33,647 nucleotides of DNA from positions 1 through 33,647 of the forward strand of contig JACDUA010000051.1 of the NCBI GenBank assembly GCA_013519935.1, in the 5' to 3' direction. Source of the stretch: Ectothiorhodospiraceae bacterium WFHF3C12. Its GTDB lineage: Bacteria; Pseudomonadota; Gammaproteobacteria; Nitrococcales; Nitrococcaceae. Both the position numbers and the translations under genes were made by a program. Under the pieces are notes generated by a model, which made no database searches, was not told the DNA's origin, and saw nothing but the letters and a program-made list of their open reading frames with translations. Below are positions 23,397 through 28,839 of this stretch, in pieces (positions within the stretch are counted from its first letter, which is position 1; every line of letters begins with the position of its first letter).

Positions 23397-23987
23397 CTAC
23401 GGATTGTTGATGCAGCGGATCCAGTCGATGACCAGCTCCGCCATCTGCGCATCGTCCATACCCTGCTGATCCAGCAGCCGCCAGGCATGAAACCCCACCG
23501 CCAGCCCCAGGGTCGCCGTCAGGCGCTCGTTGCGGTGATGCTGACCCCAGGCGGCGGCCAGGTCGTCGCGGACGCTGTCGAGGTAGGCCTCGAACTCGCC
23601 CATGGGGCCGTGAAGCGCCGCGACGTCGTGCACATCCCGATAGGACACGAACCACATGCGCGCCGTGCGCCGGTAGTAGGCGTACAGGGCGCCGAGGGCC
23701 CGCCGGGTGCGATCGGCCGGGTCGGTGATCGCCTGCCAGTCGGCGGGGTCGGGGGGTGGATGGCCGGCGAGCCAGTGGCTGGTGCAGGCCGCGAACAGGG
23801 TCTCGTCATCCGGGAAATGCCGGTAGACGGTCAGCCGCTGTACACCGGCACGTTCGGCGATGGCGCTGACCGTGGTGTTCCGCGGGCCGAGCTCCTCGTG
23901 GAGCTCGGCCGTGGCTTGGACGATGCGCTCGCGGGTCTGCTGCTGCTGCTCGGCCCGGCGGCGGAGGGTGTATTTACGCTTGCTCAT
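23397..23987 (-). CDS. TetR-family transcriptional regulator
   Basis: 196-residue one-component repressor. The N-terminal HTH is at about residues 20-62 (RERIVQATAELHEE, then TTVSAIAERAGVQRLTVYRHF), followed by a variable ligand domain. Two starts are possible: 23987 (MSKRKYT) and 23999 (MFTEMSKRK). A promoter-like TTGTCA-17-TATGTT on the minus strand would start RNA about one base from 23987, which favours the shorter form and an almost leaderless mRNA; neither start has a Shine-Dalgarno sequence. Palindromes at 23991-24010 and 24054-24073 are likely its operators. It is separated by 193 bases from the SDR downstream on the same strand, and is divergent from the MBL-fold gene. Confidence 0.87.
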   Translation of the reverse strand: MSKRKYTLRRRAEQQQQTRERIVQATAELHEELGPRNTTVSAIAERAGVQRLTVYRHFPDDETLFAACTSHWLAGHPPPDPADWQAITDPADRTRRALGALYAYYRRTARMWFVSYRDVHDVAALHGPMGEFEAYLDSVRDDLAAAWGQHHRNERLTATLGLAVGFHAWRLLDQQGMDDAQMAELVIDWIRCINNP

Positions 23988-23990
23988 TTC

Positions 23991-24010
23991 AGTAAACATA
24001 AATGTTTAAT
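23991..24010. promoter_or_regulatory. Candidate TetR operator 1
   Basis: AGTAAAC-ATAAAT-GTTTAAT: a near-perfect palindrome whose core TAAACAT-AA-ATGTTTA is exact. It overlaps the -10 of the tetR promoter and sits immediately upstream of, or over, the tetR start, so binding would block tetR transcription. The arms match operator 2. Confidence 0.75.
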
Positions 24011-24045
24011 GAAGTCTTGACAAGCGCAGGTGCCCGCGCTAGCTT
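23995..24045. promoter_or_regulatory. Divergent overlapping promoters of tetR and the MBL gene
   Basis: Plus strand: TTGACA at 24017-24022, 17 bases, then TAGCTT at 24040-24045, predicting a start near 24052. Minus strand: TTGTCA (24023-24018), 17 bases, then TATGTT (24000-23995). The two -35 boxes overlap. The plus -35 is consensus; both -10 boxes are poor. The assignments are inferred from spacing. Confidence 0.5.
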
Positions 24046-24053
24046 CCGAAATA

Positions 24054-24073
24054 AGTAAACGAGCGTGTTTACT
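24054..24073. promoter_or_regulatory. Candidate TetR operator 2
   Basis: AGTAAAC-GAGCGT-GTTTACT: perfect 7-bp arms separated by 6 bases. It lies at the predicted start of the MBL-SnoaL transcript. Its centre is 63 bp from that of operator 1, close to six helical turns, so both sites would face the same side of the DNA. Confidence 0.78.
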
Positions 24074-24128
24074 GAAAATGAGCCACCGCATCGCGGTGGA
24101 TCCCCTGAATCAAGACGAGGAACAAGCC

Positions 24129-24932
24129 ATGGACCAACCCACCCTTATGGAGGACCGCCGGCTGTCGGGCGATACGGTGCAGATTGGCGCCTACACGCCG
24201 GTGCCCGGCTTCGGCGTGCTGCCGGTCAACGCCTTCCTGATCAAGGCGGACCAGCCGGTGCTCATCGACACCGGCCTGGCCGCACTGCGGGAGGGATTCC
24301 TGGAAGCACTGGCCGCGGAGATCGACCCGGCGGATCTACGCTGGATCTGGCTGACCCACACCGACCCGGACCACCTGGGCAACCTGGCGGCGGTGCTTGA
24401 GCGCTCGCCCAACGCGCGGTTGGTCACCACCTTCCTGGGCATGGGCAAGCTGGGCCTGCACGGCCTGCCCGTGGACCGGGCCTACCTGCTCAACCCCGGC
24501 CAGAGCCTGGACGTGGGGGACCGGCTGCTGACCGCGGTGGCACCACCCAGCTTCGACGCCCCGGAGACCACCGCGGTGTTCGACGGGCGCCGCCGGGCGC
24601 TGTTCAGTGCCGACTGCTTCGGTGCCCTGATGCCGGCGCCGGCGGAGACGGCCGCCGACCTGCCCGCCGCCGGGCTGACCGAGGGCCTACAGACCTGGGC
24701 CGCCGTGGACGCTCCCTGGCTGCAGTGGGTCGCGGAGCCGGCGTTCCGTCAGCGTCTGGACGACGTCCGGGCCCTGCAGGCCGAGGCGGTCTACGGCAGC
24801 CATCTGCCACCGGCCCGGGGCATGGCCGACACCCTGCTCCAGACCCTGGACGCATCCCGCAACGCTCCGGCCTTCATCGGCCCGGACCAGGCGGACCTGG
24901 AACGGATGATGGCCCAGGCCGGCGTCGCCTGA
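24129..24932 (+). CDS. Metallo-beta-lactamase-fold protein with variant metal motif
   Basis: 267 residues from the ATG at 24129, which has GAGGAA upstream; an earlier ATG at 24078 has no ribosome site, and 24030 lies before the predicted transcript start. The MBL-fold signature is LTHTDPDHLGN (His77, Asp79, Asp81, His82), so the usual second His of HxHxDH is Asp. Acidic residues at this position also occur in the flavodiiron/ODP branch, and SADCFGALMPAPAE resembles that branch too. GSHLPP supplies a later His. There is no flavodoxin domain. It may be a hydrolase or oxidoreductase; function unknown. It probably forms an operon with the SnoaL-like gene under TetR control. Confidence 0.8.
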   Translation: MDQPTLMEDRRLSGDTVQIGAYTPVPGFGVLPVNAFLIKADQPVLIDTGLAALREGFLEALAAEIDPADLRWIWLTHTDPDHLGNLAAVLERSPNARLVTTFLGMGKLGLHGLPVDRAYLLNPGQSLDVGDRLLTAVAPPSFDAPETTAVFDGRRRALFSADCFGALMPAPAETAADLPAAGLTEGLQTWAAVDAPWLQWVAEPAFRQRLDDVRALQAEAVYGSHLPPARGMADTLLQTLDASRNAPAFIGPDQADLERMMAQAGVA

Positions 24933-24975: not shown

Positions 24976-25398
24976 ATGAGTAATACCATCGAGCAGCACA
25001 AGCACACGGTTCGCCGATTCCTGGAAGGCACCCACAGCGGCCGGCACGAGGTGGTGGACGAGACCGTCCACCCGGCCATCGTCACCCACGGCTTCCCCGG
25101 CGGTAATCCCGACAGTCGCGAGAGCTACAAGGCCTTCTTCGCCGCCATGGACGAGTCGCTGCGGGGTATGGACTTCCGGATCGACGCCATGATCGGCGAG
25201 GGCGATCAGGTGGCCGTACGCTTCACCGTGGAGGCCGACCACGCCGGCGAGTTCATGGGCGTGCCCGCCACCGGGCGCCGGGTACGCTTCGGTGGCATGG
25301 TGATCTACCGCTTGCAGAACGGCCTGATCGCCGAGACCTGGCTGTTACCCGACGGCGCGACCCTGCTGCAGCAGTTGGGGGTGCTGGACGCGGCGTGA
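24976..25398 (+). CDS. SnoaL-like polyketide cyclase / ester cyclase family protein
   Basis: 140-residue protein of the NTF2-like fold. Features matching SnoaL-like proteins are TVRRFLEGTHSGRHEVVDETVHP at the start, GDQVAVRFTVEADHAGEFMG in the middle strands and VIYRLQNGLIAETWLLPD at the end. Most such stand-alone proteins have no known substrate. It starts 43 bases after the MBL gene with AGAGGACAG upstream, and a terminator follows, so the two form a unit. Confidence 0.82.
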   Translation: MSNTIEQHKHTVRRFLEGTHSGRHEVVDETVHPAIVTHGFPGGNPDSRESYKAFFAAMDESLRGMDFRIDAMIGEGDQVAVRFTVEADHAGEFMGVPATGRRVRFGGMVIYRLQNGLIAETWLLPDGATLLQQLGVLDAA

Positions 25399-26261: not shown

Positions 26262-27233
26262 ATGGGAAAGGCGCGCGCGGATAAACTGCACCAGGTCAAG
26301 TTCTACTGCCGGCTGTGTGGCCACAAGTTCGAGGCGGAGCCCGAGCGGATCGAGGAATCGCCTGACGAGCCGTGGCATCCCTGGCGGTATTTCGCTGCGT
26401 GCGGGCAGTGTGGGGAGGAATCCGAGCAGGCATATTGGGAGCGAAACCTGCTGAAGGCCTGGGCCCGGGCCACTGGACCGCAGACGGATGAGGGTAAGGC
26501 TGCCACTGCTGCGAACCTGGAGGGGCACCCGACGCCGGAGGAAGCGAAGCGGACGCGCTTCAACGCGATGACCCACGGGGTCTATGCGCGGACGGCCACC
26601 TACTTCCCGGCCAAGCCGGGGAAATACCCTCACTGCCAGACCTGCGAGTACTTCAATAACGGCTGCGACGAGGACCCGCCCCCGGGACAGCGAAACCCGC
26701 CGGCATGCATGAAGCGGGCGGAGCTGTTTATGAAACACCAGGTAGCCTTCGAGACGAAGGACCCGGGATTGCTGCTCAACATCCGGTCGGACGTCCAGGC
26801 GGCGCTGCAGGCGATCGTCGATGACATGATTCTGGCGATCACTGCCTCCGGTGTGGAGCTCCGCTCCCCCGAGTGGTACTTCAACCCGCAGACCGGCGAG
26901 GCCGGTATTGTCGAGTACACGGATTGGGAGACGGGCGAGCGGCGCACCGTGCACAAGATCACCGCGCATCCCCTCATCAAGCCGTTGGTGGAGCTGATCC
27001 AGAAGAACAACCTCACCCTCGCCGACATGGGTATGACGCCGAAGGTTCAGGAGGAGCAGGACCTGGTCCGCGGCACGCTCGAGCAGCGGGAGAACGATCG
27101 GCAGGCGGCGGAGAGTTACCGGTCACGCCAGACCCAGCTCCTCGAGGATCTCCGCGGCCAGATCCAACGCAGCCAAGCCCGGGTGGAGCGGGATCCCGTG
27201 TTGATAGAGCACCAGCAGAACGAGGGCGGCTGA
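26262..27233 (+). CDS. Phage terminase small-subunit-like protein with two Cys clusters
   Basis: 323 residues. Placement directly before the terminase large subunit suggests a packaging recognition protein. An N-terminal zinc ribbon is formed by Cys16, Cys19, Cys47 and Cys50. The stretch GPQTDEGKAA...RFNAMTHGVYA matches the GPxTxEGK...NAxxHGxxA motif common in phage and mobile-element proteins. A second Cys cluster is at 125, 128, 135 and 149 and could bind another zinc or an iron-sulfur cluster. The C-terminus from about 270 is charged and probably coiled-coil. The role is inferred from position; sequence similarity to known TerS was not recognised. Confidence 0.65.
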   Translation: MGKARADKLHQVKFYCRLCGHKFEAEPERIEESPDEPWHPWRYFAACGQCGEESEQAYWERNLLKAWARATGPQTDEGKAATAANLEGHPTPEEAKRTRFNAMTHGVYARTATYFPAKPGKYPHCQTCEYFNNGCDEDPPPGQRNPPACMKRAELFMKHQVAFETKDPGLLLNIRSDVQAALQAIVDDMILAITASGVELRSPEWYFNPQTGEAGIVEYTDWETGERRTVHKITAHPLIKPLVELIQKNNLTLADMGMTPKVQEEQDLVRGTLEQRENDRQAAESYRSRQTQLLEDLRGQIQRSQARVERDPVLIEHQQNEGG

Positions 27234-27234
27234 G

Positions 27235-28839
27235 GTGGCCCAACGCCTCAGCAAGGCTGACGCCATCCGCATGCAGAACGTCGCCGAGCGCGAGGTCATG
27301 CGCTACGCCGGCGATCATGCCTTGTGGCACAAGCACGTGCACGATGTGGAGCTTGACCCGGTCCAGGTGCTCAAGTGCATGGAGATGGACGAGCACCTGG
27401 AGACGGTGGACTGCAGCTGCCGGCGTACCGGCAAAACTGCCGTCAAAGAGCTGTACCTGCTCAAGCACAACGCCACGGAGCCGGACCAGGAGCTCGGCAT
27501 CGTGGCGCCACGGGAGGCCCAGAGCCTAACCAACCTGGGCTATCACCTGGACTCCATTCGACGCTCGGAAATCCTCACGGCGTGGCTGGACCACCGCAAC
27601 GGCCGCCGGCAGATCTCGGATACGGCCTACGCGTTCGCCAACCGGAGCAAGGCCAAGGCGTACGGCATCATGGCGCAGGTGGACGGCGGCGACCTGACGT
27701 CCGCCTCCCTCGAGGAGGTGGATGACATGCCGTCGGACCGGCTGTATTCGCGATTCCTGCTAATGATGGGTTCCACGCGGCGCCTGGGCGCCTCGACCGA
27801 GGCGAAGAACGAGCCGCAGATCCGCATCACCGGCGTGTTCAAGGGCGCCGATACCCTCTCCACCATGATAGAAAGCGGCGGCTATCACCTGTTGCCGACG
27901 GTGGACGTCCATCTCGGCATCGAGCTCGGCATCCTCAACGAGCAATTCATGGAGCAGATGCGGGAGCGGCTTTCGCCGGATGAGTACATCCGCCAACTCC
28001 TATGCCGGAACGTCTCCGCGCGCAACCTGATTTGGGAGAAGTACGTCCGCCTGGCGGTTCACAAGGGACTGCAGGCGGGCATCGAGATCCAGGAGCCGGT
28101 GCCGGGTGATCAGTACCGCAAACGCGGCCTAGTGGCCTTCGGCTATGACGCCGGCGGCCACGGCGAGGATCCGCAGGCCTCGCGGCACGCCCTGGTGGTG
28201 GAGGAGATGATCGGCAGCCACGTCTGCACCATCTTCACCAGGACCTGGCCGCCGGGCGCCGATGACAGCGTGGTGCGCCGTGACCTGCTCAGCTACTGGC
28301 GCTATTTCATGCCCGACTGCGGCATGGGGGATGCCTATGGCGTGGGTATGCTGACGGAGCTCAATGACGATCTGTTTCGCGAGGGCCTGACGACCATCGA
28401 CCGCCGGGCGATCGGCGACGGCGACAGCACGGCCAGCACCTGGCCGGAATGGGCCTTCTCCCCCATCCGTTTCGAGGGCATGACCAAGCACCAGATGGCC
28501 CAGGCCGTACGGGCGCTGTTCCATAACCGCCACGCCGCGCTGCCCTACGTGGACGACTTACCCGACAGCGACCCCGCCGTGTCGGATATGCGGCTGCTGC
28601 AGCGCCAGCTGCCGAACATCAAACCGGAGGAGACCAAGGCCAGCTACTCCAGCTACAAAATGGCCGACAAGAAGGTGGGAGACGACCTGTTCGACGCCAA
28701 GATGGCGGCGGTCTGGGCTTTGGTCACGCGCGGCGCAGCGCCTGCGCCGGGTAACGTCATAACGCGGACACGCACGCGGTCGGAGCTCCTCGGCGCTCCG
28801 TCCATCCGCCTACCCAGCGACCCCGTGGGGATGCACTGA
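27235..28839 (+). CDS. Phage terminase large subunit
   Basis: DNA-packaging motor that cuts and pumps DNA into proheads. 534 residues, starting GTG two bases after the previous stop. ATPase features are CRRTGKTAV (Walker A, Lys67) and ASLEEVDDM (Walker B, residues about 157-165). The nuclease domain follows, with acidic residues in FGYDAGGHGED (Asp305) and DCGMGDAYG (Asp361, Asp365) as probable metal ligands. The length is normal for the family. It overlaps the portal gene by one base (TGATG), implying one packaging transcript. Confidence 0.9.
   Translation: MAQRLSKADAIRMQNVAEREVMRYAGDHALWHKHVHDVELDPVQVLKCMEMDEHLETVDCSCRRTGKTAVKELYLLKHNATEPDQELGIVAPREAQSLTNLGYHLDSIRRSEILTAWLDHRNGRRQISDTAYAFANRSKAKAYGIMAQVDGGDLTSASLEEVDDMPSDRLYSRFLLMMGSTRRLGASTEAKNEPQIRITGVFKGADTLSTMIESGGYHLLPTVDVHLGIELGILNEQFMEQMRERLSPDEYIRQLLCRNVSARNLIWEKYVRLAVHKGLQAGIEIQEPVPGDQYRKRGLVAFGYDAGGHGEDPQASRHALVVEEMIGSHVCTIFTRTWPPGADDSVVRRDLLSYWRYFMPDCGMGDAYGVGMLTELNDDLFREGLTTIDRRAIGDGDSTASTWPEWAFSPIRFEGMTKHQMAQAVRALFHNRHAALPYVDDLPDSDPAVSDMRLLQRQLPNIKPEETKASYSSYKMADKKVGDDLFDAKMAAVWALVTRGAAPAPGNVITRTRTRSELLGAPSIRLPSDPVGMH

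Follow-up and report, generated by a model that had tools for sequence, protein, structure and literature searches.

In the tetR/tetA system a repressor gene and its target are transcribed divergently, two palindromic operators of the same kind lie between them, and one dimeric repressor shuts both promoters, as set out in the accessible part of PMC3511530. According to the same part of that paper, five of five TetR-family proteins tested, with genes less than 200 bp from a divergent gene, repressed that gene. TetR-family regulators of Streptomyces (PMC3511530) and mycobacteria (PMC4482099), as presented in the accessible sections of both sources, also have a divergent gene less than 200 bp away and palindromic sites, often two or three, and most of their targets are not efflux functions. 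The window analysed here, a stretch of 33,647 nucleotides from Ectothiorhodospiraceae bacterium WFHF3C12, presents a comparable arrangement, in which a tetR gene and a gene for a metallo-beta-lactamase (MBL)-fold protein diverge from an intergenic gap of 141 bp (starts at 23987 and 24129).

Two palindromes lie between these genes. The initial annotation had described AGTAAAC-N6-GTTTA(A/C)T as occurring twice between tetR and the MBL gene, and both copies were found with the centres claimed, 24000.5 and 24063.5, separated by 63 bp. The tetR-side palindrome, here termed O1, is AGTAAACATAAATGTTTAAT at 23991-24010, and the target-side palindrome, O2, is AGTAAACGAGCGTGTTTACT at 24054-24073, neither being assigned to a strand. 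The dyad of O2 is perfect (7+7), and that of O1 pairs at 6/7 positions. When the window was searched at up to three mismatches, O1 and O2 were the sole matches, each on both strands, giving 4 rows versus 0.40 expected, and 0/100 shuffles reached 4. A seedless search for matched palindrome pairs scored 26.0 in the tetR upstream region, with dinucleotide shuffles at 20.5 or below (n = 100), and a leave-one-out motif gave 23.3 bits for the better site, O1, and 19.0 bits for the second, O2, with 0/500 shuffles as high in each case.

The tetR gene runs on the minus strand at 23397-23987 and encodes 196 amino acids from the proposed start; an earlier start, at 23999, would give the longest open frame. 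Its product carries the N-terminal helix-turn-helix of the TetR family (PF00440, residues 26-72, 57.3 bits versus a cut-off of 24), and the 14 NCBIfam models that matched did so at the helix-turn-helix only, the best with 34.4 bits versus a cut-off of 150, so that the protein was not placed in any named characterised subfamily. Homologues were recorded at 4/54, 3/369 and 6/398 in the genome sets (own genome included) and at 1/2, 2/7, 1/41 and 9/385 in the orders or class around other centres, low counts from which it follows that this regulator is uncommon; no relatives were found in viral contigs. Seventeen homologous loci came from named genome contigs and a further one from a plasmid, and the record titles of the named loci cover three phyla, Pseudomonadota, Actinomycetota and Gemmatimonadota. 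In total 36 loci were compared, the window included, after removal before counting of L032, which duplicates the L015 stretch, and of L022, the window itself; the pairs L009/L010, L024/L025, L030/L031 and L040/L041 are likely close relatives, so the locus counts are not independent.

The recognition helix reads VQRLTVYR[H/Y]F in 13/36 loci, the window included, referred to below as same-helix loci. Twin sites of the same kind flanking the same central element were present in 12/13 of them, again with the window counted. The one locus that departs from this, L033, comes from a Pseudomonas plasmid; its tetR-side site is good (12.7 bits), its second site weak (4.4 bits), and the central element is absent. 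With the leave-one-out motif, the best and the second site were each equalled by no more than 1/500 shuffles in 13/13 loci. This test is not fully blind, since the window served as the seed for the motif and rounds of iteration preceded the leave-one-out step. The consensus half-site is approximately T(G/A)AACA with its mirror, separated by a gap of 4 bp, and specific letters, beyond pairing, are kept in both sites. The seedless search recovered the same pair in 15/36 loci, including 7/13 same-helix loci and 8/22 of the distant loci (L008, L018, L015, L035, L036, L030, L039 and L029), in which operators had been picked by eye, the centre in L030/L031 being set by hand with a 1-base shift. At four of those eight no more than 3/100 shuffles scored as high, and in the remaining 14 distant loci the pair was not recovered.

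The central element is the sequence TTGACAA/TTGTCAA at 24017-24023, which can be read from both strands and is invariant in 12/12 same-helix loci. It is predicted to fuse the -35 boxes of two divergent promoters, one strand offering TTGTCA to tetR and the other a perfect TTGACA to the target. Promoters and start sites are consensus predictions throughout. The predicted tetR -10, TATGTT (23995-24000, minus strand), lies 17 bp from TTGTCA and shares its letters with O1; across the 12 same-helix loci a -10-like hexamer at 17 bp is the best of 26 offsets, evidence that is not independent of the operator owing to this overlap. The predicted target -10, TAGCTT (24040-24045, plus strand), lies 17 bp from TTGACA and is weak (3/6), having been missed by the consensus scan. 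At 16-18 bp, target -10 sequences averaged 3.33/6 matches versus 2.54 in shuffles, with 0.25% of 2000 shuffles as high. The distance from the O1 centre to TGTCAA is 21.5 bp in 12/12 same-helix loci, and, relative to the predicted start site of the target, O2 begins anywhere from 2 bp ahead to 5 bp beyond, so O2 would mostly occupy the initial transcribed region of the target. The proposal in the initial annotation that each palindrome overlaps one promoter stands for O1, which covers the predicted tetR -10, and fails for O2, which begins 2 bases past the predicted target start, within the transcribed leader. By eye, the tetR ATG sits 0-2 bases 3' of the predicted +1 in 12/12 same-helix rows. 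This points to a leaderless mRNA and favours position 23987 over 23999; tetR probably starts at 23987 on such a message.

The target gene, at 24129-24932 on the plus strand, encodes 267 amino acids from an ATG located behind GAGGAA. Its predicted leader contains a perfect stem of 7 bp closed by a 3-base loop (24083-24099) that in the consensus scan appears terminator-like on the opposite strand. The usual zinc motif of MBL proteins is HxHxDH. In the target this first metal motif is replaced by H-x-D-x-D-H, invariant in 9/9 aligned sequences, and the subclass B3 model scored 21.7 bits versus a cut-off of 240, so the protein did not group with the classical metallo-beta-lactamases. Pfam scores were 47.9 bits for ODP (cut-off 27.2) and, higher, 52.7 bits for the general Lactamase_B family. 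The predicted structure has a pLDDT of 90.1, and on comparison of this model with the PDB the first 21 matches were flavodiiron proteins or fragments, with ODP from rank 22. As modelled, the fold is flavodiiron/ODP-like and not that of a classical beta-lactamase. A SnoaL-like gene follows on the same strand (24976-25398) after a gap of 43 bp and is probably part of the same transcript, judging from this proximity; it accompanies the MBL gene in 2/9 relatives among 13 loci searched and is not a constant partner. Further downstream, 26262-28839 holds two adjoining long open frames of 323 and 534 amino acids without Pfam or PHROGs match.

Among 34 loci the divergent genes comprise 10 MBL proteins of the window's kind, 12 cupins, 7 ODP-type MBL proteins, 3 MAPEG proteins and 2 small membrane proteins, families that were profile-scanned for six representatives and otherwise assigned by reading the sequences or, for L026, from the search that looked for SnoaL partners. 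The small membrane protein of L030 has no Pfam or NCBIfam match, and its identification as a hydroxylaminobenzene mutase is for that reason unsupported. A shared physiological theme of the targets is not established.

This diversity of targets allows the operator letters to be compared with the recognition helix and with the target separately. Operator similarity correlated with helix identity after removal of C-terminal identity (r 0.42, p 2e-4, 34 loci) and after target type had also been removed (r 0.39, 34 loci). The mean operator similarity was 0.83 for pairs with the same helix and different targets (n = 20), against 0.67 for pairs with different helices and the same target (n = 81), and the residual associations were r 0.19 for target type given the helix and r 0.13 for the C-terminal part. 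The geometry of the operator varies in the same manner: the half-site gap is 3 bp where the helix reads VTVY (7/7 loci) and 6 bp with the helix VQRHT (5/5 loci), and GACA-N4-TGTC is paired with the helix VRRSTVYRHF, on both sides in 2/3 loci and mixed in L013. The operator letters thus track the recognition helix, even where the target family is unrelated, in a test weakened by the choice of the distant operators by eye.

Within its own assembly (4,616,153 bases) the motif at 0-1 mismatch occurs only at O1 and O2, contrary to what a motif common at random across the genome, the refutation foreseen in the initial annotation, would have given. At two mismatches two extra places appear, with a total of 7 rows versus 8 in the backward control, so that the exact motif at up to two mismatches gives no excess over control that would point to a wider regulon. 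A looser 18-bp pattern returned 19 rows versus 3 in the control, 4 of them from O1/O2 and the remainder from 13 other places, all of which were scored, with the flanks read for four (L051, L052, L055 and L059) and nine judged by score alone. With the relatives' motif, L051 and L059 reached 18.7 and 18.0 bits, O2 19.4 and O1 23.6, and the other 11 places no more than 13.6 bits at the match. Both L051 and L059 contain, around position 1500, a repeat that is dispersed in this genome, whose exact 15-mer AGATGAACACGGATG occurs 39 times in the genome and 0 times in the backward control; L052 has an 18.8-bit site apart from its pattern match, in surroundings that resemble the same repeat. In some copies the repeat makes up palindromes whose operator-motif scores approach that of O2. 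The place in L055 lies shortly 5' of an open frame. No wider regulon is evident, and a weak extra target may lie among the looser-pattern places.

The separation of the two palindromes invites a further reading, raised in the initial annotation, that two bound dimers touch and loop or bridge six turns of DNA, trapping or excluding RNA polymerase. The 63 bp of the window equal six turns of 10.5 bp and the spacing in the 12 usable same-helix loci is confined to 60-67 bp, but within this range every integer is represented, O2 drifting over 7 bp, and the phase concentration (R 0.39) is like that of a uniform distribution, 46.6% of uniform draws over 60-67 being as high. A phase-locked loop is not supported precisely because all these spacings occur. 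The wider comparison used 31/36 loci, in five of which TGTCAA is present only in relaxed form, and omitted L033, which lacks the element and has a weak second site, L017, where no sites were found, L016 and L037, with a single site each, and L021, whose second site is doubtful (54 bp). There the spacing extends from 45 to 72 bp with R 0.06, and 10/31 loci deviate from a whole turn by 1.5 bp or less, versus 8.9 expected. The helically phased spacing that characterises pairs of DNA-looping repressor sites was therefore not found among these relatives. Moreover, the variation is entirely on the target side in the 12 same-helix loci, and in the set of 31 the distance ranges from 19.5 to 22.5 bp on the tetR side and from 24.5 to 50.5 bp on the target side. 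Looping is accordingly very unlikely, and the spacing of about 63 bp is better understood as the result of two back-to-back promoters sharing one 7-bp -35.

A regulator encoded elsewhere, with the adjacent TetR as a bystander, could also bind the palindromes, and the small association between operator and target that persists (r 0.19) would agree with it. However, the operators change with the recognition helix of the neighbouring TetR even where the targets are unrelated, and the exact sites are found at this locus only in the genome, which makes such a regulator even a little less credible than the loop. That the palindromes act as RNA hairpins of the transcripts, or are fortuitous, is the least plausible of all. 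O2 would form part of the target's transcribed leader, where it could pair, and a separate 7-bp stem exists at 24083-24099, yet O1 is placed ahead of the predicted start of tetR transcription, for which reason the hairpin was rejected, and both sites conserve letters and not pairing alone; a chance origin of O1 and O2 is excluded by the shuffles.

The palindromes are instead read as operators of the adjacent TetR-family protein because 12/13 same-helix loci have twin sites of the same kind in the same place, and it is highly probable, on this comparative evidence, that separate dimers bound there repress the back-to-back tetR and target promoters. A dimer at O1 would cover the tetR -10 and block tetR initiation, resulting in autorepression, while a second, separately bound dimer at O2 would stop transcription of the MBL-fold gene at initiation or in early elongation and probably shut the SnoaL gene as well; a ligand would be expected to free both operators. 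Binding, repression and release by ligand at O1 and O2 are what we infer from these sequences. The earlier suggestion that one regulator shuts both genes gains support from twin-site conservation, the covariation of helix and operator and the position of the sites relative to the predicted promoters. Against the switch count the weak target -10, the overlap of the tetR -10 letters with O1, the single good site of L033, the recovery of the pair by the seedless search in no more than 15/36 loci, the residual association with target type and the choice of the distant operators by eye.

A broader proposal is put forward tentatively, and is judged rather less likely than its contrary. The locus may belong to a portable bidirectional cassette in which two opposed promoters that exclude each other share a fused -35 of 7 bp and twin operators co-evolve with the helix in their letters and in a gap of 3, 4 or 6 bp, coupled in at least three phyla to targets as unrelated as MBL-fold, ODP-type MBL, cupin, MAPEG and small membrane proteins. 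If true, such a cassette would amount to a natural experiment in how TetR proteins recognise their operators, and a family in which several helix types pair with several operator types in different phyla could help to read the recognition code. The fused -35 would provide a simple setting in which to test how divergent promoters compete. More immediately, a concrete regulator-operator pair is predicted for an uncharacterised enzyme, and the relatives discriminate real operators from a speculative loop. No description of this regulator-operator pair or of the fused -35 cassette was found in a limited survey of open papers.

Compared with the Streptomyces and mycobacterial regulators, as far as the accessible sections of PMC3511530 and PMC4482099 extend, the half-sites here are different and a fixed geometry relative to a shared -35 is not described there. 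Relative to tetR/tetA, as covered by the accessible part of PMC3511530, the operators are longer (20 bp versus 15 bp), the target is an MBL-fold enzyme and not an efflux pump, and a fused -35 lies between the two sites, which keep conserved distances to it; repression of both promoters by one dimeric protein would be common to the two systems. By analogy, the layout of the O1/O2 switch is that of the tetR/tetA paradigm, of an ordinary kind and unusually well conserved. It is distinguished by its strict geometry about the predicted shared -35 and by a recognition helix and operators that have evolved in step.
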